Shown here: positions 453-31,524 of the stretch, in pieces | Position numbering within the stretch: the first letter of the stretch is position 1 | Layout: each line of letters begins with the position of its first letter | The notes under the pieces: model-generated | What the model saw: the letters and a program-made list of their open reading frames with translations, nothing else | What the model was told of the DNA's origin: nothing | Database searches by the model: none | DNA from: a virus | DNA length: 31,524 nt | Direction: 5' to 3' (one strand) | Virus record (IMG/VR): IMGVR_UViG_3300050015_000063 | Location: 1-31,524 of that record | Made by a program: the position numbers and the translations under genes

Positions 453-479
453 AGGTTATTTATTTTTAGTTCTTGGATT

Positions 480-5071: not shown

Positions 5072-5404
5072 CTATGACCTCTTTTTAGAGCGATTACAGG
5101 ACTTGTGAGCTAATTGTAGATTTGTTGCATCTACCACTAACCCCCCTATTGCGATAGGCACAATATGGTCAATTTCCTCCTCTCCTTCTATGGTGTGTAA
5201 ACCGCATATTCCACAACTATCTCCATCTCTTTGTCTCAAGAGAGAGACTACCATTTTAGTATAATTCCTTTCAGAATTGCATTTATGGGTCTTTGCGTAT
5301 TCACGATTTTTGGCTAATATCCTTTCCCTATTTTTTAGATAATAGTCTTTGAACCACGCTGGGTTCTTATCACCATTAGAGAGTCTTGCTTTCAATTGAT
5401 TCAT
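5072..5404 (-). CDS. HNH endonuclease
   Basis: A 110-residue protein. The N-terminal half is basic and helical (YYLKNRERILAKNREYAKTH). The C-terminal half is a canonical HNH domain: CGICG, EEIDHIVPIAIGG, and NLQLAHKSCNRSKK. It binds and cuts DNA using a His-Asn-His metal site, with structural zinc held by two CxxC-type pairs. It sits between the scaffold and major capsid genes, a typical insertion point for a free-standing homing endonuclease. Confidence 0.88.
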   Translation of the reverse strand: MNQLKARLSNGDKNPAWFKDYYLKNRERILAKNREYAKTHKCNSERNYTKMVVSLLRQRDGDSCGICGLHTIEGEEEIDHIVPIAIGGLVVDATNLQLAHKSCNRSKKRS

Positions 5405-6368: not shown

Positions 6369-6614
6369 CTACCTCGCACGATTTATTTTCTCTGCACCAA
6401 CTTCTTGCGTCTTATACGTTGCTACTTTTCTAAATGCATTCTCTACTTTGTTTTTACCGACCAATCTTGCTCTAAATATCTGTCCTAATACTTCGTCTGT
6501 GATACCTAGGTCTGCTTGTGGTGTTTCTATCTCAAACTCATCAAGAATATGCTTCTTTAAGCAGTCAAAGAGGGCAGGATTGTCGGCGATTACCTTGAGT
6601 ATTTCCTTATCCAT
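6369..6614 (-). CDS. Hypothetical protein after the portal gene
   Basis: An 81-residue protein, predicted helical, beginning MDKEILKVIADNPALFDCLK and ending in a basic stretch (KVATYKTQEVGAEKINRAR). Its ATG overlaps the last codons of the portal gene by 8 bp, indicating translational coupling. Small helical proteins here could be head-assembly cofactors. No function can be given. Confidence 0.6.
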   Translation of the reverse strand: MDKEILKVIADNPALFDCLKKHILDEFEIETPQADLGITDEVLGQIFRARLVGKNKVENAFRKVATYKTQEVGAEKINRAR

Positions 6615-8430
6615 TGGCGGTCATATTAGCTGGCATTGGTGGTGTAACAGGTGCTGTTGGGGCTTGTAGAGCCTGTGGTTGGGTCTTTTGGACTTGTTCG
6701 TCTGTAATTCCATTAAAGTCTGCAGGGTCTAGGCCTGAACTCTCCAAAATATCATTAAATATTTTACCAATCGCAGGGATTTGTAACACAGCAGGATTTG
6801 CAATAATTTGTCGGAAGATGTTTACCAATTTATCTGTCTTGCCTGATAGGTCTTTACTCTTACCTTTTACGGAAACTTTAACTGCAAGAGGTGTATCCTT
6901 AAACTCGCCTTTTAGGATTTCAATGAAATGCTTAGTGCCTTTATCTTTGAAGTTCTGCATCTCCAACTCAGTCAGAGTCTTTTGGATTTCAGGTGTTACT
7001 TCTTTACCTTGAATAACCATATCTACAATCTTCTTATTGGTTTCAAGTACTGCTACCTTTTTAGCTACGAATTGCAACTCATCTAGAGACAATTCAGAAA
7101 GAAACTGTGAACCTTCGCAGATTTTCTTTTGAATGTGAGGGATAATCCAATCTTTATAGATTTCTTCAATGTGTTTAGCGAATATCCCTCGTCTGTAATC
7201 GTGTAGTCCGTGAGCTTCTTGAGTTACAAGTTCTTGAAGTTGAAATGGAGTTCCTGAAGCAGGATTGTCTCCCATAATTGAATCGTTGGCCGCACCCATT
7301 TGCTGTGCGTGTGCTTCCCATTGTTCTACTGACTTATCAAACAACTGCATATTACGAGGGAATGTATCTACTTGTCCTAAGTCTCCGTCTCCAACATCTA
7401 GGATTGTAAGGTTGTCTAAGTCTCTAACTTTTTGTTTCTTAGCAAGGATTGAACTGTTCGCTCCCGTTGCCTTTAAGATAGTCTTTGAAGCAGCGTCTAA
7501 CATATCCTGAATACGAATCATATCGTAATTGACCCAAACTTGTGCTTCAAACAATTCCTCTGCACCACCGAAACCTAGTGCTCTACCGAATACAGGGTCA
7601 CGCTTGATTAGTTTGAATGGCAATTCTTTCTCTGGTGCGGTGTAAAGAACAACTCCTTGTTTATCGGTACTGCCTTTCTTTTGATAGAAAGCCACAATGT
7701 ATAGACGGGTTTCGTAGTCCTCTGAAGTGTCCATAGGGTCAGCAAATCTCTTTGGTAGGTTGCCGTGGACTTCAAAGACTTCAACGTAACGCCCTGGAGT
7801 TTTCTTTGTCCTACCGTCTGAACTTTCGTTACCTTTTTCTTCCTTTGAAAGAGCAATCAAATCTTTAATTGATATAGTCGCACCGTTCTTCTCATTACCC
7901 CAACCAAACTGTTCCATTTCCATTAACTGGTCTGGGGAGTAGTAATGTCTAATACCAAGTGGAGCTGATAAAATATCTGTCTGGTCACAGAAAGCGATTG
8001 TCTGTAGAGGCACGACTTCAGGGCAAGGTTTGTTTAATTGTTTTGAAAGTCCTCCACCAAAATCTATTCTTGAAACGTTGAGAGCATCAAAGAAAGTGTC
8101 TAAATCATTCTCTTGAACGAATACATCATCGTGGTATTTCTTAACTAGGAACGATAGGTGAAACTTATCTGGGTTATCTATGTAAATCTGAACGTCTTTC
8201 AATTCAATATCTTCTGTCCTATGTTGAAGATTGAGAATAGGTCTCGTAATGTTTTTAACAGGTTTGAAATCATCTTTACCTGTAAGAAGTTGTGAGTTGT
8301 TGTATAAATCAGAAGTCTTAATGTGGTCATACATACACCAATCCCAAGTGTCGTTTATCGGTATTGGTCTTTTATAATTTTCTTCTTGACTGGTTATGTA
8401 ATCAAATATTGATGTGTAGTCTTTTATCAT
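6607..8430 (-). CDS. Portal protein
   Basis: A 607-residue protein in the expected position between terminase and scaffold/capsid. Portal-like features include a central segment with 'FGRALGFGGAEELFEAQVWV' followed by NYDMIRIQDMLDAASKTILK, the long helical 'stem' typical of portals. Then comes 'GANSSILAKK', a wing-like region and a charged helical C-terminus ending in a Pro-rich tail (PTAPVTPPMPANMTANG). Twelve copies form the ring through which DNA enters and leaves the head. The size (~600 aa) is within the range of short-tailed phage portals. The start ATG has only A/T-rich sequence upstream. Confidence 0.85.
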   Translation of the reverse strand: MIKDYTSIFDYITSQEENYKRPIPINDTWDWCMYDHIKTSDLYNNSQLLTGKDDFKPVKNITRPILNLQHRTEDIELKDVQIYIDNPDKFHLSFLVKKYHDDVFVQENDLDTFFDALNVSRIDFGGGLSKQLNKPCPEVVPLQTIAFCDQTDILSAPLGIRHYYSPDQLMEMEQFGWGNEKNGATISIKDLIALSKEEKGNESSDGRTKKTPGRYVEVFEVHGNLPKRFADPMDTSEDYETRLYIVAFYQKKGSTDKQGVVLYTAPEKELPFKLIKRDPVFGRALGFGGAEELFEAQVWVNYDMIRIQDMLDAASKTILKATGANSSILAKKQKVRDLDNLTILDVGDGDLGQVDTFPRNMQLFDKSVEQWEAHAQQMGAANDSIMGDNPASGTPFQLQELVTQEAHGLHDYRRGIFAKHIEEIYKDWIIPHIQKKICEGSQFLSELSLDELQFVAKKVAVLETNKKIVDMVIQGKEVTPEIQKTLTELEMQNFKDKGTKHFIEILKGEFKDTPLAVKVSVKGKSKDLSGKTDKLVNIFRQIIANPAVLQIPAIGKIFNDILESSGLDPADFNGITDEQVQKTQPQALQAPTAPVTPPMPANMTANG

Positions 8431-9280: not shown

Positions 9281-10588
9281 TTATCTAGCAGGATTTTTCC
9301 TTTCAACAGGTCTATCGTAAACAATATCAAAATCATTTGTTCTGTTGTGCATTGAGGAGATTGGGTATGACACAGAGTCCATTGCGTGAGACCAAGTATG
9401 TTCTGGCACACCTTTCGGATTGCCGTCTTTATCCTCCGCCCAACGATAGTTCTCATAAGACTCCCAAACATTCGTACTTCTTTTAGTTACATAAATCTTC
9501 TTCTGTGAAGTAGCTTTGATACGGAACGACACAGAGTCCTTACCTTTCTCACAACCTACTACATTCATTCCATAAGCTCTTTGCTCTGCGATACTCTTAG
9601 GTTCTGCACTATCAGCCACACAAGAGATTTCAGAGTGTCTACCTGTTACTTTAAGAGCTTCACCTGCAAGGTATTCATTCGTTAGTTCTGTACCATAAGC
9701 GAGTTCATCAATGATGTAAGCACCATTCCAGTAATAAACGGCTACGAGGGAAGCAGGGTCAGGAAACCACCCAAAGTCTTCACCCAATTTAACCAAACGT
9801 GCCTCATTTGGTATGTTATCAATCAACTGCCAACCTGTGTATATCTTTCCCCTTACTTCATCAGGACTCAATCCCTCAATCACTTGCCAATAATAATCAG
9901 GGTTTGTGTATTTGTATTGCTGATAACGCCAGACTGTGGACTCATCAAGATTAGGTTTGTTCTCTACCCAAGTTCCACCAATGTAAATAGCGTCTTTACA
10001 ATCTGCTTTAATCTTTGGTATGTAAAACCCTGTCGCTTCAGGGTGTGGTGTGAGGTCAAACCATTTCTTAATAATCCAATGACTCTTTGAAGGTGTGTTG
10101 AGAGTTAGAACAATCGTAATCTTTCCTTTAACCGTACGGAGTGTGTCGTCTAATGTTCTAAACTCTGCTTCACCAATTTCTTCAGCCTCTTCAATCCATA
10201 CAAAGTTATACCCAGCTAGAGATTTCAAACGTGCTGTAAGTGACCCACTAGAAGCTCTGAAACCGTGTGCTCTTAATGAGTTCTGTCCACGTTCTATGAA
10301 CATATCGTTCTCGGTAATATGGAAACCACTTTCTATTCCCTGCTCTCGTAACCTATCCATTATTTCACTCCAACAGGAAGCTCTAATGTCCTCACGAGTA
10401 GCACGCATTATTGCTCCTCGGATATATTCCTTTGAAAGTAGTTTAGAAACAGCGAAGCGTGAAGCTGTTCCTGAACGACCGTTACCACGACCACCGCAGA
10501 TTATGACGTAACGTATGTTATCTCCTATTGTCCAAAGTGGAGCGTGCGATTCGTGAACCGTAAAATCTATTTCTTTATTTTCTGACAT
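9281..10588 (-). CDS. terL: Terminase large subunit (packaging ATPase/nuclease)
   Basis: A 435-residue DNA packaging motor of the PBSX-like (Terminase_3) type. The ATPase domain has a P-loop at residues 31-41 (CGGRGNGRSGT), Walker B with adjacent glutamates at 130-138 (FVWIEEAEE) and a coupling motif near 160-168 (IVLTLNTPS). The C-terminal RNase-H-like nuclease shows acidic residues in LGEDFGWFPDP (D272) and VADSAEPKS (D327). Unusually, the P-loop lysine is replaced by arginine (GNGRSG instead of GxGKS). It overlaps the small-terminase candidate by 14 bp. The enzyme docks on the portal and drives DNA into the head. Confidence 0.93.
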   Translation of the reverse strand: MSENKEIDFTVHESHAPLWTIGDNIRYVIICGGRGNGRSGTASRFAVSKLLSKEYIRGAIMRATREDIRASCWSEIMDRLREQGIESGFHITENDMFIERGQNSLRAHGFRASSGSLTARLKSLAGYNFVWIEEAEEIGEAEFRTLDDTLRTVKGKITIVLTLNTPSKSHWIIKKWFDLTPHPEATGFYIPKIKADCKDAIYIGGTWVENKPNLDESTVWRYQQYKYTNPDYYWQVIEGLSPDEVRGKIYTGWQLIDNIPNEARLVKLGEDFGWFPDPASLVAVYYWNGAYIIDELAYGTELTNEYLAGEALKVTGRHSEISCVADSAEPKSIAEQRAYGMNVVGCEKGKDSVSFRIKATSQKKIYVTKRSTNVWESYENYRWAEDKDGNPKGVPEHTWSHAMDSVSYPISSMHNRTNDFDIVYDRPVERKNPAR

Positions 10589-12489: not shown

Positions 12490-12678
12490 ATGAACGAAAA
12501 AGAAATTAGAAAAATGCAGATGAATGAAGAAGAGAAGGAAACAATGAAAGCAATTTGGTTTCCAAAAGAATGGCACAAAGTAATTAAGGAACGAGCGGAA
12601 GAAGAAGGATACCCAATTTATAAATATATAATGATGTTGAGTAATAATAAAAATATATTCAATGAAAAATCCAACTAA
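12490..12678 (+). CDS. Putative ribbon-helix-helix regulator
   Basis: A 62-residue protein. After a charged N-terminus, 'ETMKAIWFPKEWHKVIKERA' gives a short strand and first helix, and EEEGYPIYKYIMML gives the second helix, matching the Arc/CopG-type ribbon-helix-helix layout. Such proteins bind operators as dimers. It is the first gene after the structured leader and the divergent promoters, so control of one or both promoters is plausible. Internal ATGs (MQMNEEEKE) offer shorter starts. No Shine-Dalgarno site. Confidence 0.5.
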   Translation: MNEKEIRKMQMNEEEKETMKAIWFPKEWHKVIKERAEEEGYPIYKYIMMLSNNKNIFNEKSN

Positions 12679-13117
12679 AACATGTGCGAAGTGTAAAGAA
12701 ACAAAATCTGTAAAAGATTTTTACACCACAAGTTTTGGAACTCCTGCTTCATATTGTCATCAGTGCAGAATAATTATAGGAAGAAACTGGAGGGTTACTC
12801 ATTTGGAACAATCAAGAGAATTGGTTAGAAACGCAAGTAAAAAATATAGAATAAAATATTTACACTCATACGATAAGTATGTAAAAAATAACCCAGAAAA
12901 AAGATACGCAAAAGAAGTTATACACGATTTGACCAGACATGGAAAACTTACAAGAAAACCTTGTGAAGTATGTGGAGAAAACAAGGTTCACGCTCATCAC
13001 CCAGATTATTCAAAGCCTCGTGAAGTGATATGGCTTTGTCCAGTACATCACAAAGAAGAACATAGGAGAATAAAATTATTAGTTAATAAACATAAAGTAT
13101 ATGAGTTCAAGAACTAA
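12662..13117 (+). CDS. HNH endonuclease with N-terminal zinc knuckle
   Basis: A 151-residue protein. Residues ~8-36 form a CxxC...CxxC zinc knuckle (CAKCKETKSVKDFY ... YCHQCR). The middle is basic and helical. The C-terminus is HNH-like: CEVCGENKVHAHHPDYSKPR, then WLCPVHHKEEH. It overlaps the upstream gene by 17 bp. It is clearly related in architecture to the protein at 14913-15464, so two members of this nuclease family lie in the same operon. Homing or DNA processing is the likely role. Confidence 0.82.
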   Translation: MKNPTKTCAKCKETKSVKDFYTTSFGTPASYCHQCRIIIGRNWRVTHLEQSRELVRNASKKYRIKYLHSYDKYVKNNPEKRYAKEVIHDLTRHGKLTRKPCEVCGENKVHAHHPDYSKPREVIWLCPVHHKEEHRRIKLLVNKHKVYEFKN

Positions 13118-14635: not shown

Positions 14636-14923
14636 ATGACACAGAAAAACATTATCTTAAAACTCCTCGCCTCTCAACCAGATAAAAAGTTTTTCAGTTA
14701 CGAACTTATGAAAGCAAGTACACCGTTCGGTTGGTTGGGGAGTTCTGGGGATAGACGAGCAAGAGAACTGGCGGAAGAAGGCTTAATAAATAAAAGAGAG
14801 GGCAAAGTCTATGCAGAATACTGGCATAAACCAAAACCAGATGTCTTTCAGATGATGGGATTAACAAAGAAGCCAGTTATGCAGGACTTATTCAAATCAT
14901 TTGGAAAAATCTATGGAAAATAG
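14636..14923 (+). CDS. Winged-helix DNA-binding protein
   Basis: A 95-residue protein with helix-turn-helix/wing pattern: IILKLLASQPDKKFFSYELM, SGDRRARELAEEGLINKREG, and KVYAEYWHKP as wing strand. This form is common in phage regulators that read DNA or promote orderly origin firing. It lies after the OB-fold-like gene and before an HNH gene. Confidence 0.6.
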   Translation: MTQKNIILKLLASQPDKKFFSYELMKASTPFGWLGSSGDRRARELAEEGLINKREGKVYAEYWHKPKPDVFQMMGLTKKPVMQDLFKSFGKIYGK

Positions 14924-15464
14924 AACCTTTGACAGCGTAATCTCCGCCTTAAACAATATGGTCGCACAGAAGCAATGCCGAAAATGTGATGAGATAAAAT
15001 CTAGTGATTATTTCGGAAAGGATAAAAAAAGAAAAGACGGTTTGGCTTCTTGGTGTAAAAAGTGTAGAAATGCTGTGAGACATAACTTTTACATTAAACA
15101 CAAATCAAAAGAAATCAAGCAAAAAATTAAATACTATATTCGTAACAGAAAACAAATACTAAAAAGAGAAAAGGTATATAAAAGAAAGAATAAGGACTCT
15201 ATATCAGATAGAGATAGAAAATACCAAAAAAGAAAAAAAGACACTATCGGTGGTCATAGAAAATATGTTGCAAGATATAAGACAAAAAATGCCGTCCTTT
15301 CAGGAAAATTAAAAAAATTGCCTTGTACCTTTTGCGGGAGTATTAAAAGTCAAGCTCATCATCATAATGGATACACAAAAGAACACTGGTTAGACGTGTT
15401 ATGGCTTTGTGAAAAACATCATAAAATAGTACATAGAAAATATAATTATTCAAAACTAAAATGA
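14913..15464 (+). CDS. HNH endonuclease with N-terminal zinc knuckle (second copy)
   Basis: 183 residues from the ATG at 14913; the frame could extend to a TTG at 14901. N-terminal knuckle: CRKCDEIKSSDYFGKD ... SWCKKCR. Middle: strongly basic, Lys/Arg/Tyr-rich helices. C-terminal HNH: CTFCGSIKSQAHHHNG, then WLCEKHHKIVHRKY. The same domain order as 12662-13117 indicates a shared origin. The start lies inside the upstream gene's last codons. Confidence 0.82.
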   Translation: MENRTFDSVISALNNMVAQKQCRKCDEIKSSDYFGKDKKRKDGLASWCKKCRNAVRHNFYIKHKSKEIKQKIKYYIRNRKQILKREKVYKRKNKDSISDRDRKYQKRKKDTIGGHRKYVARYKTKNAVLSGKLKKLPCTFCGSIKSQAHHHNGYTKEHWLDVLWLCEKHHKIVHRKYNYSKLK

Positions 15465-16111: not shown

Positions 16112-16543
16112 ATGAAAAAGAAAAAAGTGTGTGAAGAATGTGGGTGCAACTATGAAACTTATCAGGCATTTTCAAGATATTGTGGACAGCGTTGTAAAGG
16201 TAAAGCAAATTACAAATCAAGCGGTCGTAGTGTTCATGGGGATAATAAATTACCAAGTGCCACAGTCGGAGCTATGTCAGAAATATTTGTTTCGGCAGAG
16301 TTAATGAAAAAAGGTTATGCAGTCTTCAGAGCATTATCTCCATCTTGTTTCTGTGATTTAATTGCAATAAAAAATAACCAAACCTTAAGAATTGAAGCGA
16401 GGACAGGATATAAGAACACTAGAACGAATAGAATGTGTTACCCAAAAAATACTCATGGCGATATTACACACTTTGCAATTTATGAAAGAAATGAAGGTAA
16501 AACTTATTTTTTTGACACTAATCATAATGAAATAATGATATGA
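16112..16543 (+). CDS. Zinc-knuckle PD-(D/E)XK-like nuclease
   Basis: 143 residues from the ATG at 16112, chosen because it lies right at the predicted transcription start. N-terminus: CEECGCNYETYQAF ... RYCGQRCKG, a zinc knuckle. C-terminus: 'SEIFVSAELMKKGYAVFRAL', 'CFCDLIAIKNNQTLRIEART', matching the E...D...(E/Q)xK layout of the PDDEXK_5-type nucleases. The final catalytic lysine is arginine here (E-A-R). Such enzymes cleave DNA in resolution, restriction or homing. Activity is uncertain because of the substitution. The gene has its own promoter and operator. Confidence 0.65.
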   Translation: MKKKKVCEECGCNYETYQAFSRYCGQRCKGKANYKSSGRSVHGDNKLPSATVGAMSEIFVSAELMKKGYAVFRALSPSCFCDLIAIKNNQTLRIEARTGYKNTRTNRMCYPKNTHGDITHFAIYERNEGKTYFFDTNHNEIMI

Positions 16544-16926
16544 ACGGACAACCTATACCAAAACAAGGCAAAGTAAAAGGTTTATCGTTAGGTAAGTGGC
16601 GTTCAAAGTGTGATAAAGAAATGCAGATAAAAGGTAAAATGCTCTTTCCCAAAAGTTTAATTTCAGGACAACCTACAGAGGTTATGCACCACTTTATTCC
16701 GAAAAGTGTTTCAGCGACACTTCGTTACAACTGGGATAACCTTATCCCATTGACAACTGCCGAACATTGTCGCCTACACCAAAGTCCTGACCCTACGATT
16801 GAACAGATGATACGGAGTAAAAAAGGCGATGCGTGGTGGAATGACTTACAGGCACGGAAAGGAGTAATCATAAAAGTAAATGTCGGGTATTACAAAGAAG
16901 TTTATCAACGGCTATCCGCAGTTTAA
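16540..16926 (+). CDS. HNH-like nuclease
   Basis: A 128-residue basic protein. 'TEVMHHFIPKSVSATLRYNW' and NLIPLTTAEHCRLHQSPD give an HH...N...H pattern like the HNH or NinG-type recombination nucleases. The N-terminus is basic (KQGKVKGLSLGKWRSKCDKE). It overlaps the PD-(D/E)XK-like gene by an ATGA junction, so two putative nucleases are co-expressed from one controlled promoter. Confidence 0.65.
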   Translation: MNGQPIPKQGKVKGLSLGKWRSKCDKEMQIKGKMLFPKSLISGQPTEVMHHFIPKSVSATLRYNWDNLIPLTTAEHCRLHQSPDPTIEQMIRSKKGDAWWNDLQARKGVIIKVNVGYYKEVYQRLSAV

Positions 16927-21082: not shown

Positions 21083-21997
21083 CTAAGAATTTAAATAACT
21101 TCTTGTTATCGTCCCACAGAATCCCGTATTTATTATTCCGTGGTCTTTCTGGTACTTCCTCACAGCGTCTCTGGTCATTGTCCAGTACAATCCAGTTTGT
21201 TTGACTCCCAGTCGTTTCTGCAACTCCTTTACATTGTTTCCGAAAGAACCTAATCCCATATCTTTAGTGAATAGGAACTTATCTTGTGGAACTGAAACGT
21301 CTTTTACTCCTAAGAAATACATCGCAGCAAAAACACGATGTTGTAGAAAGTCTTGAGTTATAAGGCGTAATCCGTCTGGCGATGAAGTTTGTCCAGCACT
21401 ATCCTCGCACGCTATCGTCTTAACGCCATTTACAAGACCATAATCGACCGCACAAATACCGTGGCCGAAGGTAGTTAAACCTCCGAGATAAATTGGAGTT
21501 AATTGATACTCATTACTATTGCTTTCTAAAAGGACAACACATTGTTTGTAGGCTTCTATAGCTTCAGCAATTTGTTCAATATCTTTTGCATTTCTAATCG
21601 TACGATAGCCAGTCACGCCAATGTTTGTAGTGAGTTGTTTTATAGTATTCATCACTACTTCGTTTTGGAATTGAGAAGGAGAGACTGCTTCCAAACAAGT
21701 ATAACGATTGTAATAAACATCTCCCATGTCCTGAAGGAATGAACCTTCGTTTGGATAATTCTTTCTCCAGAAATATGGTGAAGCTGAAACAACTTTACCC
21801 GTTAAGACTTCAATAGCTTTTGCACCTGCTTGAAAAACACAGGAATAAGACCCATTTTGGTTACGCTGTTTATAACGTTTCCAAGTCTTTTTCTCTACCC
21901 AAGTTACAGGAGTAACACCAGTAGTATGGATATAGTCGAGAGCTTTTTTCTCCTCTGGTCGTGGGTCTTGAATAGCACCATTTTTTATATTGTCCAT
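21083..21997 (-). CDS. Endolysin: papain-like cysteine peptidase plus peptidoglycan-binding domain
   Basis: 304 residues from the ATG one nucleotide after the upstream stop. Residues ~50-200 are a cysteine-peptidase domain: 'SYSCVFQAGAKAIEVL' with nucleophile C53, 'FGHGICAVDYG' with H179, and CEDSAG with D199 as the third catalytic residue. Residues ~248-302 form a peptidoglycan-binding type 1 domain (GSFGNNVKELQKRLGVKQTG). Together they suggest peptide-crosslink cleavage in the cell wall at lysis. There is no signal peptide, so export depends on the holin system. A signature lysozyme domain is absent here but present in the separate gene at 19315. Confidence 0.8.
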   Translation of the reverse strand: MDNIKNGAIQDPRPEEKKALDYIHTTGVTPVTWVEKKTWKRYKQRNQNGSYSCVFQAGAKAIEVLTGKVVSASPYFWRKNYPNEGSFLQDMGDVYYNRYTCLEAVSPSQFQNEVVMNTIKQLTTNIGVTGYRTIRNAKDIEQIAEAIEAYKQCVVLLESNSNEYQLTPIYLGGLTTFGHGICAVDYGLVNGVKTIACEDSAGQTSSPDGLRLITQDFLQHRVFAAMYFLGVKDVSVPQDKFLFTKDMGLGSFGNNVKELQKRLGVKQTGLYWTMTRDAVRKYQKDHGIINTGFCGTITRSYLNS

Positions 21998-21998
21998 G

Positions 21999-22367
21999 TT
22001 ATTTAGATATAAGATATTTAATAATTTCAATTAAGCCAACGAGGACAACTCCAACACCACCACCAGTTATTCCACCAGAAATTTTGGCTTGCTTTTGTAT
22101 TACCTGTTCTTGTCCTTCGTGATTAGCTTTGAAAGTATCAAGAGCATCCACTTTTTCAGACAACACCTTTATTTCAGATTGGACTTCTTTTCGCAAATCT
22201 TCAATCTTTTTATTTTGGTCAGAAGTAGCAACACGAAACTCAATCTTAAAATCATTGATACTTTGATTAACTGCTAAAAATGATGCTTGAGTAGCAACAC
22301 TTTGGGCAGTAATAGTTCCTTGTAATTGTCCTATCTGTTGAAATAAATTGTGGTCTGGTGATTCCAT
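21999..22367 (-). CDS. Coiled-coil protein with C-terminal membrane segment (holin/spanin-like)
   Basis: 122 residues from the ATG next to the upstream stop; a 19-codon N-terminal extension would overlap the upstream gene. A long coiled coil (KIEDLRKEVQSEIKVLSEKV) leads to a glycine-rich hydrophobic end (GGITGGGVGVVLVGLIEIIK) with a Lys tail. Such an arrangement is common in small lysis-region phage proteins (XhlA-like). It directly precedes the endolysin. Holin, spanin or anchor function is inferred. Confidence 0.6.
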   Translation of the reverse strand: MESPDHNLFQQIGQLQGTITAQSVATQASFLAVNQSINDFKIEFRVATSDQNKKIEDLRKEVQSEIKVLSEKVDALDTFKANHEGQEQVIQKQAKISGGITGGGVGVVLVGLIEIIKYLISK

Positions 22368-22368
22368 T

Positions 22369-22734
22369 TTATTCAATAGGTTCATCAACTGGTAATGTAT
22401 TCTCGGTTGGCTTAACCTCATCAACAGGTGTCAAATCTTTTACTTTCTGTTGTAACTCTTCTTTTTCAGTTTGAAGGGTTGTAATTGTGTCCACCTTGTC
22501 TTCTATCTCTGCGTCTTTACTCATCACAACGGCCTTTAATCCTTCAATCTCTCCATTCCTACTATTCAAAATAACAACCCCATCATTAGCCTCTTTTTGA
22601 GCAATTTCAAGAGTCGTAAATTCTGCTTTGAAATTCTCATTGAGAATATCGCTTGCAAGTTGTAAGACTGCCAACTCATCTGTGCGAGTTTTAATTGCAT
22701 TTTCTATCGTCGCTTTTGCCATTTTTATATCCAT
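22369..22734 (-). CDS. Coiled-coil hypothetical protein
   Basis: A 121-residue, almost purely helical, charged protein (MDIKMAKATIENAIKTRTDE; VVMSKDAEIEDKVDTITTLQ) ending in an acidic Pro-containing tail (TENTLPVDEPIE). It lies between the surface protein and the lysis genes. It may be a virion-associated or lysis-accessory protein. No known family. Its fifth codon is a second possible ATG. Confidence 0.55.
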   Translation of the reverse strand: MDIKMAKATIENAIKTRTDELAVLQLASDILNENFKAEFTTLEIAQKEANDGVVILNSRNGEIEGLKAVVMSKDAEIEDKVDTITTLQTEKEELQQKVKDLTPVDEVKPTENTLPVDEPIE

Positions 22735-22744
22735 AAAATTGTTG

Positions 22745-24238
22745 TTAATTTTGTAATTGTGTACATTGATAATTTATCTTATTCCCCGACAAAGCTGTTT
22801 GAGAAATGACTAACTGTGTTGTACTTACCGTATAGGTCATAGCGTTGACTACGGACATGGATTGATTTGTTACTACACAACTCGGAGCAAAAGATTTTGT
22901 TGAGGTAAATGCCACAGTACAGCCAGTTGTAGCCGTTCCAACAGTTATTTCTCCTGCTGTATCAGTACCACGAACAGAGGGTGAACCGCCGCAACTTGAA
23001 AGAGTTGGGGCAGTACCGCCAGTTGCTATATCACCATATACCGTTAATTTATAATTAGGAGTTGAAGTGCCGACACCGACTTTTCCGTTCACCAAAAGAT
23101 TTGCCGCCCCAGATCCATCTGCTCCTATAATTTGCACAGCCACACCATTGACAGAAGTGCTGGTAGAAATACTTAGCGATGGGAAAGAAGATGTCGTACC
23201 GCCAAATTGCAAAAGACCAAAATCAGTTGCTGCGTTGTTCGCTATTAACAGGTTATTATTTGTGGCCGATGATATTCGCGATCTTCCGCCGCCACCTCCG
23301 AACTGTATAAGAGAACCCACATAGCTTCCGGCGAGAGAGCCTCCTATTATTTGTCCAACTGCCGTGAAGGCGGCATCAGTTTTTACTACCCCAGATCCAC
23401 TTCTGTACAAGTTTGCTGTCGCGTCACCAAAGTTGATCCCCCCAGCTGTCGTCGTCCCTTGTGACAAATTCAGCAACGCCGCCATTGTCGTCGTTCCAAT
23501 CCCGACATTCCCATTTCCCAGCACTGTAAACAACGTGGTTGTTGCCAAGTTGGCTGAAGTTGATGAGGCAATAGCAAAAAGTGTATTGGTACCAGCCAGT
23601 CCTGAGTTGTCGTGGATGGAAAGTTTGGCGGTGGGGGCGGTGGTGCCGATACCGACAAAACCATTACTAAGTATTCTCATTCTTTCGTTTGAGGTAGCAG
23701 AACCACCTGTTAGAAAGTTTATGTATCCACCCGTCGTAGATGTACTAGCAATTATTCCAACTGGCCCATCTGTGTTTTGAATGTATAGATAATTTGGTAT
23801 CGCATAAGCAGCCCCAAATACTGGGTCTGAGTAGGTACTTGAGTTGTAAAACATTCCACCAAAATGTAGAAAAGTTGCATCTCCAAGGTTATTATTTAGT
23901 GACAAACCATTCCAAGCGGAGGAACCCGAGTTTATATTTGAAATTTGTCCATATACTCCGCCAGAGGTATTGTCATTTCCAGTAAGTTGAAAGCATGCTC
24001 CACTAAATCCTACGCAAGTCCCTGATGTTGTTGCATTACCCATTGATGTAAAACCATTGATATTTGCTGCAGAAACAGTAAGTGATGTCGTCGCTACATA
24101 CGCACCTGTAGTTGTGGACTGTAAAATATAACCAGAAGTCGGGGCTGAGGGGACGGTTATATTAAGTGCCAATGCGATTAAAGGTGTTCCTAATAAAATT
24201 CCTGCTAATATAAGACCTAGTTGTTTTAATGTTTTCAT
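22745..24238 (-). CDS. Secreted surface-type protein with Patescibacteria-like GIGTT repeats
   Basis: A 497-residue protein. Residues 4-27 form a signal peptide or membrane anchor (LKQLGLILAGILLGTPLIAL). The body is Gly/Ser/Thr-rich, with three near-repeats: SNGFVGIGTTAPTAKLSIHD (191-210), LGNGNVGIGTTTMAALLNLS (240-259) and NGKVGVGTSTPNYKL (384-398). Between repeats lie SST...TTLF strings. The C-terminal ~95 residues contain cysteines and SFAPSCVVTNQS, ending KINYQCTQLQN. This arrangement is what I know from secreted repeat proteins of Parcubacteria. The middle (about 23380-23660) is clearly more GC-rich than neighbouring genes, which suggests acquisition from a host. It could be a virion adhesin or a host-surface mimic. 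Confidence 0.7.
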   Translation of the reverse strand: MKTLKQLGLILAGILLGTPLIALALNITVPSAPTSGYILQSTTTGAYVATTSLTVSAANINGFTSMGNATTSGTCVGFSGACFQLTGNDNTSGGVYGQISNINSGSSAWNGLSLNNNLGDATFLHFGGMFYNSSTYSDPVFGAAYAIPNYLYIQNTDGPVGIIASTSTTGGYINFLTGGSATSNERMRILSNGFVGIGTTAPTAKLSIHDNSGLAGTNTLFAIASSTSANLATTTLFTVLGNGNVGIGTTTMAALLNLSQGTTTAGGINFGDATANLYRSGSGVVKTDAAFTAVGQIIGGSLAGSYVGSLIQFGGGGGRSRISSATNNNLLIANNAATDFGLLQFGGTTSSFPSLSISTSTSVNGVAVQIIGADGSGAANLLVNGKVGVGTSTPNYKLTVYGDIATGGTAPTLSSCGGSPSVRGTDTAGEITVGTATTGCTVAFTSTKSFAPSCVVTNQSMSVVNAMTYTVSTTQLVISQTALSGNKINYQCTQLQN

Positions 24239-24255: not shown

Positions 24256-25245
24256 TTAAATAAAACCGTAAATATCATCATTCGGTGGAATTGTCATTGT
24301 TGCCTGTGATAAACCAACGTTCCACGTCCAACCTTTATTTTCACGATACCAAGCACCATCTTGAACAATAAATGTCGGTTTCTGTGTAAAAGTGAAGGCG
24401 GTATTACTACCATCTATTGTACCAGTTGCAGGAAGGAGAGTAAAACCACTGCTATTACCCCATATATCATCATTTGGGGGTATTACCATTGTAGCAGTTA
24501 AAGTACCAGTATTCCACGTCCAACCTTTATTTTCACGATACCAAGCACCATCTTGAACAATAAATGTCGGTTTCTGTGTAAAAGTGAAAGTTAGATTTGA
24601 GCCGTCTACCGAACCTGTGGCTGGGAGGAGTGTGAAGCCTGAACTTCCTCCTGCAATGGTTACAGTATCAAGTCCATTTACTTTAGAATATGTTGCACCT
24701 GCAAAATCAATAGAGTTTACTTTACCTTTCTTTTGACCTGCAACGTGTAGAAATACACCACCTGAACCACCACCTCTTTGTATTCCTTCAGTTACTTTTT
24801 TAGTTAAACTGTCTTCAAGTCCTTTAATCACTTTTTGTTCTATGATACCTTCTTCGGAGTTGAGTTTTTCAGCTATCTGTAGCGATGTGTCACTAGAACC
24901 ATCTTTGCCATCAAGCCCGTCTAATCCATTTTCTCCGTCTTTCCCATTCTTACCATCAGTACCGTTTAGACCGTTTATTCCGTCAATTCCATTGAGCCCG
25001 TCATTACCAGTATCACCCTTATCCCCTTTGTCTCCCTTATCACCTTTAGCACCTTTTATGGTAACTAGTTCAGCACCTTGTATCTCTACTTTCTGCACTT
25101 CGGGCATTTCAGGTTTCATACTTAATTTATTGTCCACAGCCTTAATAGCCTTGAATATGGCTAATTCGGGGTCTTTATTGAGATTTATCAAGTCTTGAAT
25201 TTGTTGTTTCTTTTCTTCTGTATTTAATTGTGTCGTAGGTGGCAT
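24256..25245 (-). CDS. Collagen-like fibre protein with duplicated C-terminal domain
   Basis: A 329-residue protein. Residues 1-60 are helical and charged. Residues 65-117 are Gly-X-Y repeats (GAKGDKGDKGDKGDTGNDG), which form a trimeric collagen-like rod. From ~195 two tandem domains follow (~65 residues each), both containing PTFIVQDGAWYRENKGWTW and ending near IPPNDDI. Collagen-like repeats with C-terminal beta domains occur in phage fibres and spikes. This is a probable adsorption appendage. The second copy of the domain ends the protein. Confidence 0.72.
   Translation of the reverse strand: MPPTTQLNTEEKKQQIQDLINLNKDPELAIFKAIKAVDNKLSMKPEMPEVQKVEIQGAELVTIKGAKGDKGDKGDKGDTGNDGLNGIDGINGLNGTDGKNGKDGENGLDGLDGKDGSSDTSLQIAEKLNSEEGIIEQKVIKGLEDSLTKKVTEGIQRGGGSGGVFLHVAGQKKGKVNSIDFAGATYSKVNGLDTVTIAGGSSGFTLLPATGSVDGSNLTFTFTQKPTFIVQDGAWYRENKGWTWNTGTLTATMVIPPNDDIWGNSSGFTLLPATGTIDGSNTAFTFTQKPTFIVQDGAWYRENKGWTWNVGLSQATMTIPPNDDIYGFI
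24320..24588 (-). repeat. 77-bp exact direct repeat within the collagen-like fibre gene
   Basis: 24320-24396 and 24512-24588 are identical over 77 bp, 192 bp apart (64 codons), although the flanking repeat sequences have diverged. They encode the FTFTQKPTFIVQDGAWY... core of each tandem domain. The long identical core inside diverged copies suggests recent gene conversion. Confidence 0.85.
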
Positions 25246-25601: not shown

Positions 25602-25701
25602 TTTCTGTCTTTCTTTTCTGTTAGGATTGTTAAAACCTATAGCTTCTTGGCTATTGAACCAGCAACACGAGACCAAAACGCCGCACCCTTTGGCGAAGTA
25701 A
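25519..25701 (+). CDS. Doubtful ORF: small plus-strand membrane protein
   Basis: 60 codons: MIILEIVGIILLMFVLISLG then more hydrophobic residues, then LLKPIASWLLNQQHETKTPH. It would be a single- or double-span membrane protein with a polar tail, downstream of the plus-strand promoter. Its 3' end overlaps the 541-aa gene by 65 bp on the opposite strand. Small hydrophobic proteins expressed against the late genes could act as a toxin or regulator, but coding is not established. Confidence 0.35.
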   Translation: MIILEIVGIILLMFVLISLGFVVFILSIFCLSFLLGLLKPIASWLLNQQHETKTPHPLAK

Positions 25702-27262
25702 AGACAAGACCAAGAGTTTTGATTAGTTGTTTTGTGGCACTTCCACCGAATTGACCTTTTGGCAATACTTTTTGAGTTTGCAAAGCGGCAATACCGTCAA
25801 GGATATTTATACCAGTCTTATCTTGTAAGTCTTTAAGAGCCGAAAGATAAGCCGAACTATTTTCGTCAAAGACTTTTTGCAATCTTCCTTCCACAGTTTT
25901 CATTGAAATCGGACTTCCGTTCCAAGCCTTTACGATTGCGTTAGCGTTATCAAGGACTTGTTTTTCTGTTGCGTAGTTACTCAAGAAATCAGAAGCTCCA
26001 GTAAACTTACTAACTGCACCGTCAAGAACATCTTTGAATTGTCGGACAATAATTCCACCTGAACCCATTTTAACATCTGCTTTATTATAGAGTTCGTTGA
26101 TGTTTTTATTAAGGTCAAGTAATTCTTTGATACTCATATTGCTCGTATCTTTTGGCACTTCAATACCATATTGAGAAACAATTTTATCAAGTAATTTTGT
26201 CTGTGGTGTTGTTAGACTTGCTCTCGCTCCTTGATTTGTGTCTATCAAAGTTGTCATTCCTTCATCCCATTGAGAGGATAAAGTTTTACGCAAAGTCTTA
26301 ACTGCATTTTGTGTATTTTCTCTAACCGAAGCAACACCACCAGTTTTTACTGAACTTCCAGCTTCAGCCATCGCTGATGGATTATCAAAGTTTCTTTGCA
26401 AAATATCCTCTGGTGTGTTTGATGTATAACTCAATAATTTAGGAGTTCCTTTAACTGCATACTTTATTCCCTCAAGTGCCGCAGAAGTTCCAGCACCAAC
26501 TACTGCACCACCGACTCCACCAACGACAGCAGACTTCAAAATACCAGTAGGCGAAGCATTTTGTTGCATAGCTCCTGTTGCTCCAAAACCAGTCCCATAA
26601 GCCGCTCCGACTTCTACACTTTTTAGTATTTTTTGTCCTGTTGAAACTACTTTTGCCGTTCCTGCGATTTTACTTGAAGCACTTGCGAGTCCTGAACTTG
26701 CTCCTAACATTTCAAGGAACATAGAACCGAAATCTCCCAAAACTTGTTCATTAGATTTTTTGAGAGCAGGGAATATATCTTCTACGGTTTGATGATTTGT
26801 AAGTTGATAATTTTTTATCAAATTATCGTAATGAGAAGTATCTTGTCCACTTGCTTTTATCTGTTGTCTTTTCTGAATAATGTTTGTTAAAAATTGCTGG
26901 TCAGCTTTATCTATTTTATTTAATCCAGCCTGTATCATAGGAGACCACGCAACCGCAGAAATATCTTTACCAACTTCTACTGTTCCGCTCACAAGAGATT
27001 TTGCTGTATTAACTAAAGCTGTGCCTGTGTCGGGAGTTGATGAGTCTGGTATTGCTTGAGTAGAACCCGAAGTTGCATTATTCTGTGTCCCAACAAAACT
27101 CGGAGTCTGAATTACTGGAGCAGTTGGCTGAACACCAAAGTTTACTTGGCTAGCATAGACAGGATATTTAGCAATGATTTGTTTCGCTAGAGTTGTATCA
27201 TCAACACCTGCATAAGTTGGATATTTTGCTTTTACTTGTGCTGAAAATTGTTGTGGTGTCAT
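25637..27262 (-). CDS. Large internal/ejection-type virion protein
   Basis: A 541-residue protein. The N-terminus has a repeated 'KAKYPTYAGVDDTTLAKQII' and AKYPVYASQV motif. Then comes a long helical body with a Gly/Ala-rich hydrophobic stretch (ILKSAVVGGVGGAVVGAGTS, about residues 235-260) that could insert into a membrane. The C-terminus is helical. Large helical proteins with Gly-rich membrane-active segments after tail genes are typical ejection proteins of short-tailed phages. No lytic transglycosylase motif is visible. The assignment is by architecture and position. Confidence 0.5.
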   Translation of the reverse strand: MTPQQFSAQVKAKYPTYAGVDDTTLAKQIIAKYPVYASQVNFGVQPTAPVIQTPSFVGTQNNATSGSTQAIPDSSTPDTGTALVNTAKSLVSGTVEVGKDISAVAWSPMIQAGLNKIDKADQQFLTNIIQKRQQIKASGQDTSHYDNLIKNYQLTNHQTVEDIFPALKKSNEQVLGDFGSMFLEMLGASSGLASASSKIAGTAKVVSTGQKILKSVEVGAAYGTGFGATGAMQQNASPTGILKSAVVGGVGGAVVGAGTSAALEGIKYAVKGTPKLLSYTSNTPEDILQRNFDNPSAMAEAGSSVKTGGVASVRENTQNAVKTLRKTLSSQWDEGMTTLIDTNQGARASLTTPQTKLLDKIVSQYGIEVPKDTSNMSIKELLDLNKNINELYNKADVKMGSGGIIVRQFKDVLDGAVSKFTGASDFLSNYATEKQVLDNANAIVKAWNGSPISMKTVEGRLQKVFDENSSAYLSALKDLQDKTGINILDGIAALQTQKVLPKGQFGGSATKQLIKTLGLVFTSPKGAAFWSRVAGSIAKKL

Positions 27263-27266
27263 ATTA

Positions 27267-28802
27267 TTATTTAGTTACTCCAAAAACTCCTAATGGGTCG
27301 GTTGCAACGGTCATAGGAACTGTTACTGTGTTTGCTGAACCTATCGGATTATTGTAAATAGAATTAGCTAGAGATATAGTGTCCATTACTTGTTTAGGAC
27401 TATATTTTCTTGTTAATCCTAGAGCAGTTCCGACAAATCTCGCAGAGGTTGCAATAAAAGACGGAGAGTTTAATGAAAGTGTCGGGTCTCCACCTGAACG
27501 AGCCAAGTCTGGTTTTACCATACGAGCAGTCTGTTGTGCGATAGCGGCTTGGTCTTCATCACTCAATTTTCCTATATCACTTTGTGTTACTGTCGCTGGT
27601 GTTAATTTGTAATTAGAGAGAATTGCTTGAATACGAGAATACGCAGAGTTGACAGTTTGTGTATCAAGATTATTCTGCTCAACAACTTTCGGGTCAAGTC
27701 CGTTCCCAAGTGTAATTCCTTGTAAGTCTGATAGTTTTGTTCCGACTGGAACACCGTACTTTGCCGCTTCATCAAGTGTTAGTGTACGGTTAAGATTTCC
27801 TTGAGGATTTAGTATTGCATTTACTTGAAGTTGTTTTAATTGTTGTCCAAGAACATCACCACTATATTGTCCAGCCGCCTTAATTGCCGAGTTCATATCA
27901 GTTGCGTTGTTGATTGCAGAGACAACCGCCCCTGAAGCACCTTGAGAAACAGCACTTTGAAGAAGTTGACTTTGTGTCTTGAGAAAATCTTGTTGTGTTG
28001 CATAAGCTTGTGCCTGTTGAGTTTTAAGGGTATCGAGTAAGTTTTGTTGCTGTTTATCCGCAAAATCATACACTGCATTTATCATACTGGTATTAAAACT
28101 GTATGTATTCTCTGCATCTTTTGATTTGATTGAAAATAATGTGTCAAGATTACTTTGAGCCATCTGTAAATTACCTTGAGCAGTAGCGAGAAGTGCTTGA
28201 ATTGGAAGAGCATTGATTGCAGCTTCTTTAGCGATTTCTGCTTGTCTACCACCTACAATCGTTTCGGTTGCACCAGTATTTGAACCCTGTACATTTGCAG
28301 CAAGTTGGGCAGCTTGGGAATTAGCTGTAATGGTATTTAATTGTCCTGTGTAAGTATTGACTGCTTGCTGTGCTTGGTCAACGCCAGTTTGTTGGCGGGT
28401 TGTGTTATAAAGATTTTCTAAATTAGGTTGAGGATTATTCATCAACGCATTTATTCTGTCATTTGCGAGTTTTGTCTGTGAATCAACAACGGCCTGTTCT
28501 TTAGGAGTGTAAATACCGTTAGAATCTGTGGTAAACCCTGAAGGAGTCAATGCTTGATTATTTGCTGTTACTACACCAGTTGTTTGAGATGTTGGAATTG
28601 TGGTAGCAGTCGGAATCGTTGGTTGTGTTGTAGGTGTTAGAGTAGTAGAGGAGATGGGAGCGGTTGCTGTTGATGAAGTAGGTATACCATAAGAAGCATA
28701 TTGAGCATCTTGTGCTTTCGCTGAGGCACTTGTTCCACCTACCACGTGTCCACTCGGCATTACTGTTCCTACTGCGTATCCTCCTATTGTTTGAGTTGCC
28801 AT
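27267..28802 (-). CDS. Large helical Gln/Ala-rich virion protein
   Basis: A 511-residue protein. Residues ~1-110 are Ser/Thr/Pro-rich and probably disordered (SSTTLTPTTQPTIPTATTIP). The rest is helical, rich in Gln, Ala and Asn (AQQAVNTYTGQLNTITANSQ; DKQQQNLLDTLKTQQAQAYA), without cysteine or membrane segments. It precedes the 541-aa protein by 4 bp, so the two are likely co-translated and may form a complex. A role as ejection or internal core protein is inferred. Confidence 0.5.
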   Translation of the reverse strand: MATQTIGGYAVGTVMPSGHVVGGTSASAKAQDAQYASYGIPTSSTATAPISSTTLTPTTQPTIPTATTIPTSQTTGVVTANNQALTPSGFTTDSNGIYTPKEQAVVDSQTKLANDRINALMNNPQPNLENLYNTTRQQTGVDQAQQAVNTYTGQLNTITANSQAAQLAANVQGSNTGATETIVGGRQAEIAKEAAINALPIQALLATAQGNLQMAQSNLDTLFSIKSKDAENTYSFNTSMINAVYDFADKQQQNLLDTLKTQQAQAYATQQDFLKTQSQLLQSAVSQGASGAVVSAINNATDMNSAIKAAGQYSGDVLGQQLKQLQVNAILNPQGNLNRTLTLDEAAKYGVPVGTKLSDLQGITLGNGLDPKVVEQNNLDTQTVNSAYSRIQAILSNYKLTPATVTQSDIGKLSDEDQAAIAQQTARMVKPDLARSGGDPTLSLNSPSFIATSARFVGTALGLTRKYSPKQVMDTISLANSIYNNPIGSANTVTVPMTVATDPLGVFGVTK

Positions 28803-29105: not shown

Positions 29106-30626
29106 TTATCCTGTGCTACCGAATAGATTTTCGGTCTCAAACTTAAAGCCTGTTAATTCTGCACCACCCGTTGACTCTATTCTAAAGCGTATTTCTCCAA
29201 ACGTGGCAAAAGGTAATTGGGTGCTTTCTATCACAAAGAAATCACGACCTACTTCTCCGACTGTTGAAAGAGAACCGACAGTAGTCCAAGAAGTATCAGC
29301 GTCTACTTTATATTTTACGGTAAGAGTTCCACCTGTCATCGGAGGTGTAGTGATAGAGATTTTTTCTATTCGTTTTGTCGTTGAGGCATCTCCAAAGTTA
29401 AATATCTGTGTTTCGTAAAAGGAAGTAAATGTATATGTCGCTGTTGAAGAGGTCTTATCTATTGAACCGTCTCCACTGTGAGAAATAAAGAAGTAATTGG
29501 CCGCTGTTCCAAAGGCTTGAATACCTGATGTGTTTACGTTCTCATCAATGTAATCTAGTGAAAGAGTAAAAGGATATGACGCACTCTTTCTACCGAAAGA
29601 CCAGATACCCTCGTTGTATTCTGTGCCTGCGTCATTACTCATCAATTTTGCCGCAAAAAATAGACGATTATTCTTAACTGCCTTTGAAAGAGGCATAGTA
29701 ACACCAGTTAGTTTTTTAGTGAAAACTTCTTTAACTACTTGTGGTGAACCACCAGAATAGGTTTGAATAATTAAAGAACCTCTACCTGCTCCTGTAGAGT
29801 TATTGAGATAACGGTCTGTAACTCCTACAAGCATACCCTCAATCGTTTCAAGGATATTTAATGAACCCTCACCCCAATCAATGTTATCTTGAAAAAGGGT
29901 TGAAGAATAATCCCATATAAAAACTTTAGACTTTCCGTTGTATTGATTGATTGGAGCACAAGCGATGGCTAGATAGTTTCCGTAGTTTGTTAAAGAAGTA
30001 ATTTTATAGTTTACTGGAACAGTTTTAACTGCATCTGTAATCGTACCAGCAGGAGAAATCCTTACGATATTATTATTGTATGCGATATACCCCTCACCTA
30101 AAGAGTTAATAACTCCACCTTGTGCGACTGAAGTGATTGTCGCTCCCAAAGTTACGGCAGTATTCGTAATACTCGGAGAACCAGAAAGTGTCCCCCATTT
30201 GAAGATTTGATTTGTGCCTTGAAAACCCCAGAGATAGTCTATAAACTCAAACAAACACCCATTTTGAACAGCTCCGTTACCCTCTGATGAAGTAGGGAGT
30301 GTCCAGTTACCAGTTGTAGCGTCGGCTTTGTAAACGATTTTAGTCTGTCCTGAATCGTTCTTTCCTAGTCCATATAATTTAGCGGAAGCGGAAGCGTATA
30401 GAAAATCCTGAACATAGTATTGCTTCATTCCAGTTGAGGTAGAACCGTCATTTGTATCAGCACCTAAATCACGGTAAGGTGTTATCTTTCCAGGATTTGA
30501 GAATATATCAAAATGTTTTGAAATAATAAAAGAGTCGGCAAAATAATTCTTACGATAAAGTCGTACTTGTCGGTTGTTATCCGATATTCCACCTGACCAA
30601 TCAAATTGTGCAAGAAATGTAGACAT
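29106..30626 (-). CDS. Tail structural protein, beta-rich (complete copy, version B)
   Basis: A 506-residue protein, beta-rich throughout (MSTFLAQFDWSGGISDNNRQ; LTNYGNYLAIACAPINQYNG; WTTVGSLSTVGEVGRDFFVI), with periodic Gly/Trp strands reminiscent of a beta-propeller, and ending LTGFKFETENLFGSTG. It lies between the fibre gene and the small coiled-coil gene. It may form the tail hub or a tail-needle/tube element of a short tail. The N-terminal third has a second version at 1-452. Confidence 0.6.
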   Translation of the reverse strand: MSTFLAQFDWSGGISDNNRQVRLYRKNYFADSFIISKHFDIFSNPGKITPYRDLGADTNDGSTSTGMKQYYVQDFLYASASAKLYGLGKNDSGQTKIVYKADATTGNWTLPTSSEGNGAVQNGCLFEFIDYLWGFQGTNQIFKWGTLSGSPSITNTAVTLGATITSVAQGGVINSLGEGYIAYNNNIVRISPAGTITDAVKTVPVNYKITSLTNYGNYLAIACAPINQYNGKSKVFIWDYSSTLFQDNIDWGEGSLNILETIEGMLVGVTDRYLNNSTGAGRGSLIIQTYSGGSPQVVKEVFTKKLTGVTMPLSKAVKNNRLFFAAKLMSNDAGTEYNEGIWSFGRKSASYPFTLSLDYIDENVNTSGIQAFGTAANYFFISHSGDGSIDKTSSTATYTFTSFYETQIFNFGDASTTKRIEKISITTPPMTGGTLTVKYKVDADTSWTTVGSLSTVGEVGRDFFVIESTQLPFATFGEIRFRIESTGGAELTGFKFETENLFGSTG

Positions 30627-31524
30627 ATTAGAAGTTATTTATTTTTAGTTCGAAGGTTTTAGACATAATGTTCGGTTACGATTACAATACCTTGCGTTCC
30701 TGCATTACCAGCAGTTGCAGATGAGTGGCTTAAAACTCCTCGCCCACCAGAACCATAAGTAACAGAAAATATAGATACTGCGGCAGGTGGAAAATCACCA
30801 CTAACTCCACCGCCAATATAACTACTTCCACTAGCACCGCTTAAGTTTATATCACCGCTTGCACCAACACCTCCAGCAGTTGAACCACCACTTGTATTGC
30901 TACCGTTTGTTCCACCGCCACCAGTCGCTGTGCAATGAGCACCAAAAGAACTATTACCGCCAGCCGCAGCAACATCATTACCACCTGACGAACCACCAGC
31001 TCCAGCAATTCCGATTGTTACGGTTTCAGTAGCACCTAGTGTTGCAGCCGCAATTAGTTTCCTTGAATAACCACCAGCACCACCTCCTCCTCCATCTGCC
31101 GAATTTGCGTTTGCACTCGTTCCACCAGAACCACCACCACCTGCTTGAACTTCCACTATGACATATTTCAAACCAGCTGGTTTGCTCCAAGTTGCAGGAG
31201 AAACAGAGTGGTCATAAGTCCTTACTATTGGTTTTGCCAAAGACCCACCAATATAGGTTGCCAACTTCGCAGGCGTAACAAACAACTTCGCCCCTGTTGA
31301 ACCTGTTGCTGTTCCTGCTGTTACCTGTGCGTCTGTAGCTTCTTGCACGATACCTTTAGATGTTTCGCTTGCTAAGGGGTTACCGCCAGAGTCTACATAC
31401 GCACGAGTTGCACGCTGTGAGGCAATCTTCGTTGCGGAGTTAGCGGCAAGTGTGCTGTCATCATCTAACAAGGAAGTTTCCAACTTTTCATTGTTCAACG
31501 CTGTTACGTTATTATTTATTACTG
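30175..31524. repeat. Terminal homology with positions 1-1342 (strain variants or repeat)
   Basis: Both window ends contain the same gene order: the N-terminal part of the tail protein, a short spacer and the fibre gene. 1-83 and 30175-30257 are identical, as are 1216-1342 and 31398-31524 (127 nt). Between them identity falls to about 90%, lowest in the fibre tip, with a 5-nt spacer difference and a one-codon difference. This is best explained by a circular genome assembled through two strain versions. Confidence 0.8.
30659..31524 (-). CDS. Glycine-rich tail fibre (version B, 5' end beyond the window)
   Basis: Homologous to 480-1394. The reading frame stays open to the window edge, so the start codon lies outside; the internal TTG at 31498 is not the true start. 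The conserved helix/anchor part is nearly identical to version A. The Gly-rich distal part differs, with loops such as GDINLSGASGSSYIGGGV against GDINLSGGNGLSPIG and one codon of length difference. The likely role is host recognition. Confidence 0.75.
   Translation of the reverse strand, partial: VINNNVTALNNEKLETSLLDDDSTLAANSATKIASQRATRAYVDSGGNPLASETSKGIVQEATDAQVTAGTATGSTGAKLFVTPAKLATYIGGSLAKPIVRTYDHSVSPATWSKPAGLKYVIVEVQAGGGGSGGTSANANSADGGGGGAGGYSRKLIAAATLGATETVTIGIAGAGGSSGGNDVAAAGGNSSFGAHCTATGGGGTNGSNTSGGSTAGGVGASGDINLSGASGSSYIGGGVSGDFPPAAVSIFSVTYGSGGRGVLSHSSATAGNAGTQGIVIVTEHYV

Follow-up and report, generated by a model that had tools for sequence, protein, structure and literature searches.

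A gene for a fibre protein with a signal peptide recurs across a group of tailed phages, mostly beside a tail-fibre gene. It was studied in a virus record from IMG/VR, 31,524 bases long, the whole of which is referred to here as the window. The C-terminal domain (C-domain) of the protein is carried on signal-peptide phage proteins in 13 of 14 distinct cases, and both observations are new. The anatomy of the protein, the relatives of its modules and its position in related phages are established here. A patescibacterium near Paceibacteria is the most likely host of the phage. The product may be a Sec-exported, trimeric, lectin-tipped fibre which acts outside the infected Patescibacteria-type cell, a reading that is preferred tentatively.

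The gene lies on the minus strand, the plus strand over 22745-24238 being stop-rich throughout. The protein and its parts are as follows.

22745-24238, minus strand: signal-peptide fibre protein, 497 aa
24167-24238, minus strand: Sec-type signal peptide, residues 1-24, with an A-L-A cleavage site (heuristic call)
23597-23695, minus strand: shaft repeat 1 (...ERMRILSNGFVGIGTTAPTAKLSI...), matching the Bdellovibrio MAT chains 8ond and 8oml
23447-23545, minus strand: shaft repeat 2 (...LFTVLGNGNVGIGTTTMAALLNL...)
23018-23116, minus strand: shaft repeat 3 (...LLVNGKVGVGTSTPNYKLTV...)
23339-23698, minus strand: GC-rich middle, GC3 up to 0.51
22748-23026, minus strand: C-terminal Cys domain, all-beta, a weakly H-type-lectin-like tip (alignment A4; AF2 pLDDT 87)

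The leader (MKTLKQLGLILAGILLGTPLIALA, followed by LN after the predicted cleavage site) has a positive n-region, a hydrophobic core and the A-L-A site. Only two ORFs of the window pass the heuristic signal-peptide filter, namely the fibre and a small TM/holin-like ORF. A misplaced start codon was considered and ruled out, as the following Met comes only at residue 66, and the leader is common to the relatives. The body between the leader and the C-domain is rich in Ser, Thr and Gly. It contains three VG[IV]GT[TS] motifs (VGIGTT at residues 195 and 245, VGVGTS at 387), and none occurs outside this ORF in the six frames of the window. Shuffled versions of the fibre hold 0.003 such motifs per copy, and none of 20,000 shuffles reaches three. 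Four of the six Cys residues are located in the C-terminal domain (416, 440, 454 and 492); each of the five upstream genes for tail and tail-fibre proteins encodes 0-2 Cys. Neither a cell-wall anchor nor a Peptidase_S74 match was seen in the protein. The initial annotation had reported a signal peptide, three NGxVGIGTT-type repeats and a Cys-containing C-terminal domain for this ORF, all of which are borne out.

It had also described a GC-rich middle unlike the rest of the genome, and base composition agrees. Measured over 400 bp, GC is highest in the window at 23251, with 0.515 (z = 3.0). Within fibre residues 181-300, GC3 rises to 0.51 (z = 3.0; the genome averages 0.29), whereas the two ends of the gene, at 0.21-0.25, are unremarkable for the genome. 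The GC-rich middle is therefore more than an amino-acid effect.

The surroundings of the gene are those of a tail-fibre and lysis region. Transcription on the minus strand runs from the collagen-like tail fibre through the signal-peptide fibre, the coiled-coil protein and the holin-like protein to the lysin candidate.

30659-31522, minus strand: Gly-rich tail protein (PHROG phrog_863, Pfam Gly_rich_2)
29106-30626, minus strand: tail protein, conserved in relatives
27267-28802, minus strand: large structural, probably ejection-type protein, judged by size and place
25637-27262, minus strand: large structural, probably ejection-type protein, judged by size and place
24256-25245, minus strand: collagen-like tail fibre (Pfam Collagen, PHROG tail fibre), directly upstream of the signal-peptide fibre
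22369-22734, minus strand: coiled-coil protein, downstream of the fibre
21999-22424, minus strand: coiled coil with a C-terminal hydrophobic segment, holin-like (by eye)
21083-22030, minus strand: lysin candidate with a Cys-peptidase-like part (by eye) and PG_binding_1
9281-10588, minus strand: large terminase (Pfam Terminase_3), the basis of the host phylogeny
6607-8430, minus strand: putative portal, from position and conservation in relatives, without a family match
4126-5043, minus strand: putative major capsid protein, from position and conservation in relatives, without a family match

Similarity between the two ends of the window (1-1342 and 30175-31524, about 1,350 bases) is 84%. Assembly has probably continued beyond the starting point of a circular or permuted genome into sequence of a second strain, which places the true genome at about 30.2 kb. 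HNH-like ORFs are present at 1387-1971, 5072-5404, 12662-13117, 14901-15464 and 16540-16926; of these, only the first two have confirming Pfam matches, to NUMOD3 and HNH. When the lysin candidate was compared with 333 Patescibacteria genomes, its peptidoglycan-binding part alone matched, in 5 genomes.

The terminase of the window matched 39 viral contigs, a single named record (MW202577, Manatee Spring, 51% identity) and six loci in cellular genomes. The cellular identities are 71% for nzgw467, 54-61% for three Rhizobiales MAGs, 40% for Fermentibacteria and 25% for a Clostridia MAG. A search of 297 genomes from the order of nzgw467 gave no terminase relative other than that of nzgw467 itself. 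The signal-peptide fibre is found in six of the eight genomes compared, those of the window, L044 (genome G005), L045 (G008), L047 (G010), L049 (G017) and the Rhizobiales contig Ga0077530, and was not seen in the Hyphomicrobiales prophage or MW202577. The four L-numbered copies have a signal peptide, a Ser/Thr-rich body and a common leader-proximal motif. In these four and in the window (5/8) the fibre adjoins the counterpart of the collagen-like fibre, with one HNH-like gene placed between the two in L047. The Ga0077530 copy lies elsewhere in the tail-gene block, between an adaptor-like gene and the next tail gene. The distal parts of the fibre are unrelated between relatives, and the L045 copy ends in a C-terminal Peptidase_S74. 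Across genomes whose terminases are 61-76% identical the gene keeps its position, and this type of fibre gene is old in the phage group.

A scan for the ejection protein found no relative and one for the lysin a single partial one. Most matches in the scan for the collagen-like fibre were to collagen repeats, and it added no signal-peptide fibre. A tblastn search of the fibre and the L119 C-domain against 50,697 named phages gave no match. Small proteins with a signal or TM start are present between the portal and scaffold genes of several relatives (L043:16822-17343, L047:3558-4124, L050:485-994 and L056:5889-6314). Literature searches on signal-peptide tail fibres returned nothing directly relevant.

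Structural comparisons suggest a prism-like shaft and, much more weakly, a lectin-like tip. By phmmer the shaft matches Bdellovibrio MAT fibres (8ond, E 5e-6; 8oml, E 2e-5). A PDB fold search with the C-domain ranks H-type lectins first, at E 0.27-0.33, TM 0.42-0.45 and an rmsd of about 10, with tailspike and pyocin-fibre tips behind them. No Pfam hit to the H_lectin sequence family was obtained for the window protein. In a viral structure library the C-domain has three matches with E below 0.001, each to a phage protein that is uncharacterised; some H-lectin phage proteins follow at E 0.04-0.2, and tail-fibre proteins also appear. The full-length AF2 monomer has a pLDDT of 35 and is unusable, so the predicted trimer rests on homology.

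From these data a route can be proposed for the product of this gene of the tail-fibre/lysis region. The signal peptide would direct the fibre out of the cytoplasm and would then be removed. Outside, three chains may wind into beta-prism segments with the VGIGT loops as caps, and the C-terminal all-beta domain, presumably stabilised by disulfides, could form a lectin-like tip for the binding of glycans at the surface. As the fibre would leave the cytoplasm, the site of virion assembly, it would mostly work as a receptor-binding adhesin of the infected cell, either surface-bound or released. Such an adhesin might cover the phage receptor or alter what the host sticks to. The export step is suggested by the signal peptide of the window protein and of its five relatives, four of which occupy the same position. 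The reading also draws on the signal peptides of C-domain proteins in other phages, on the chromosomal Patescibacteria proteins that share these modules, on the shaft match to the surface-located MAT family and on the Cys content, which exceeds that of the upstream tail genes. The tail-fibre/lysis neighbourhood, retention in most relatives and a highly variable distal part weigh against a role at the cell surface, as these are traits of virion receptor-binding proteins; the lack of a visible cell-wall anchor and the weakness of the lectin matches also count against the model.

It is also quite possible that the protein is a receptor-binding fibre of the virion, either exported and joined to particles at lysis or held by its N-terminal helix as a virion or membrane anchor. 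This explanation fits the genomic place and the variability better than the surface model does. The gene adjoins the collagen-like tail fibre, and a lysin-like gene follows it in the window and in L045, L047 and L049 (the L044 contig ends before any lysin is visible). It is also retained in six of eight genomes, and unrelated distal parts are typical of receptor-binding proteins. The fold matches to viral tail-fibre proteins point the same way. So do the counterparts of a second tail gene, the Gly-rich tail protein at window 480-1394, which have an N-terminal hydrophobic helix in L008 (19448-20572), L047 (6828-7874) and L053 (1396-2517); these counterparts are assigned by position, at 22-26% identity, and the window copy is without the helix. 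The S74 chaperone at the end of the L045 copy would suit a virion fibre, but it does not discriminate, as Bdellovibrio surface fibres also carry S74 (PMC10769870). Against a virion role stands the conserved signal peptide itself: a Sec-exported protein could not join virions in the cytoplasm, and either joining after lysis or an uncleaved anchor would be needed.

The modules of the fibre are also found in cellular genomes. A shaft-repeat model built from phage copies only was compared with the phylum of nzgw467 (Patescibacteria) and that of Hyphomicrobiales (Pseudomonadota). It matched 64 of 145 Patescibacteria genomes and 5 of 150 Pseudomonadota genomes, the latter being several times larger (the Patescibacteria genomes listed are 0.4-2.0 Mb); nzgw467 itself has 11 matches. 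The earlier statement that this repeat style is typical of Parcubacteria and relatives is upheld as an enrichment, relative to the single phylum used for comparison. The C-domain model, for which GC-rich phages supplied most of the sequences, matched 10 of 240 Patescibacteria genomes and none of 249 from Pseudomonadota. An N-terminal model (A3) matched 5/145 and 0/150, respectively, and was dropped as a diagnostic for being too rare. Several chromosomal Patescibacteria proteins combine a signal or TM start with VGIGT repeats and/or the same C-domain. Those of L140 and L144 adjoin genes resembling gap-pgk-tpi (by eye), and that of L142 has a signal peptide and the Cys C-domain.

In phages, the DNA pattern of the C-domain occurs on 17 viral contigs. 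A signal peptide starts 13 of the 14 distinct C-domain proteins, compared with 21 of the 146 remaining ORFs of these contigs (Fisher p = 3e-9, a guide only, as the contigs are partly related). The C-domain phage contigs are mostly GC-rich, and three that were checked have Shine-Dalgarno fractions of 0.33-0.60, so they are not CPR-phage-like. Exported proteins encoded among virion genes are therefore no CPR peculiarity. On C-domain phage contigs L118, L122, L113 and L116, runs of signal-peptide proteins lie amid virion structural genes. A broader proposal is that Patescibacteria phages and the C-domain-sharing phages send fibres of the virion region through Sec, to clothe the infected cell anew in host-style trimeric adhesins or to complete virions with fibres that mature outside the cytoplasm; it is speculative and rather unlikely in this general form.

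A host within the Patescibacteria is probable. In the terminase tree the window and the nzgw467 contig fall into one clade of 19 rows (99/96); the sister of that contig is G005. The MAG nzgw467 is a patescibacterium with three prophages, placed among MAGs of the Paceibacteria family UBA5272 (PMC12455944). Its phage contig, a single one, is tied to it by co-binning and not by integration. The same bin holds other phage-like contigs, L080 (G021:C23) and L147-L151, including a divergent terminase. In the window, 3 of 40 genes have a Shine-Dalgarno-like site ahead of them. By a single method, the fraction is 0.07 for the window, 0.09 for the nzgw467 phage contig and 0.07 for an nzgw467 chromosomal contig, against medians of 0.11 in Patescibacteria and 0.31 in Pseudomonadota and values of 0.18-0.21 for the Rhizobiales prophages; each set is small, and Bacteroidota, outside the sample, would look alike. 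In k-mer composition, one nzgw467 chromosomal contig ranks 2nd (L1) and 8th (TETRA) of 41, which agrees weakly with a Patescibacteria host. A ranking with nzgw467 first was dropped, five of its six contigs being phage-like or too short.

A host outside the Patescibacteria, for example an alphaproteobacterium, with the resemblance due to a module common to many phages, is unlikely. It would account for the relatives in three Rhizobiales MAGs (54-61% terminase identity) and for the C-domain in GC-rich phages. The Hyphomicrobiales contig ends carry DCD, Sbt, ion-channel and ABC-transporter genes, and Ga0077530, which has a signal-peptide fibre of the same style, carries TspO and MFS genes at one end; with such host-type genes, both are likely true prophages. 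In the tree, however, these Rhizobiales loci stand apart from the window as a long-branched clade of their own (100/100), and their GC content is 0.55-0.58. Patescibacteria are the better fit for the Shine-Dalgarno use and the k-mers of the window (Bacteroidota being Shine-Dalgarno-poor as well), and the models of the shaft, the N-terminus and the C-domain have few or no matches in Pseudomonadota. One Rhizobiales prophage related to the phage group (L058/L077-L078) encodes a Parcubacteria-style fibre of 1,029 aa; another is L057/L073-L076/L081. The CPR host named in the initial annotation is thus favoured by the terminase tree, the Paceibacteria placement of nzgw467, the rarity of Shine-Dalgarno sites and, weakly, the k-mers. 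The surface protein alone does not point to it, given the Rhizobiales prophage, the Bdellovibrio repeats and the C-domains of GC-rich phages.

The same annotation had proposed that the gene was taken from the host, to which the matches lend no support: in local comparison phage C-domains come first (E 1e-15, about 42%), the best cellular match being Patescibacteria shafts (E 3.5e-7, 34% over the shaft), with no match in the Pseudomonadota sample, which was not balanced by design. A recently acquired host surface gene (moron), serving adhesion of the patescibacterium rather than the phage, is improbable: the modules shared with chromosomal surface proteins, the GC3 island in the shaft and the lectin-like adhesion genes proposed for groundwater Patescibacteriota phages (PMC12911398) would suit it, but there is no close cellular homologue, the gene type is old and keeps its place, and GC3 is normal at both gene ends.

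Phages credibly linked to Patescibacteria are few, and cell recognition by these epibionts and their phages is largely unknown. A recurrent signal-peptide fibre with modules common to host surface and predator fibres is a concrete candidate for receptor binding. Signal peptides on the products of genes beside virion genes bear on where phage fibres mature; if the proposal holds, export by Sec would be an unusual route for the fibres of tailed phages.

Four known systems resemble the window fibre in part. The H-type lectins, such as Helix pomatia agglutinin (2cgy, 2ce6 and 4q56), resemble the C-domain weakly at best, in fold (E about 0.3) and not in sequence family. The surface proteins of Parcubacteria/Patescibacteria likewise have a signal or TM start, a Ser/Thr-rich body and VGIGT repeats, some with the same C-domain. 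They differ in being chromosomal and mostly about 800-4,000 aa long, and none is a close orthologue of the window fibre. Peptidase_S74 tail fibres and tailspikes, such as the T5 L-shaped fibre and the K1F endosialidase, have the same shaft principle and genomic place; unlike these, the window fibre is without S74 and has a signal peptide, while its relative L045 does have S74. The MAT fibres of Bdellovibrio bacteriovorus, for example Bd2133 (8ond) and 8oml, are about 1,000 aa long, compared with 497 aa for the phage-encoded window protein, and have another tip. The family has signal peptides, trimeric beta-prisms and variable tips, with a conserved beta-rich N-terminal domain of ~130 aa after the signal peptide across the superfamily, and acts at the predator surface (PMC10769870). 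The window fibre is like them in its signal peptide, its predicted beta-prism shaft with VGxGxxxPxxxL-type capping loops and its variable C-terminal tip.
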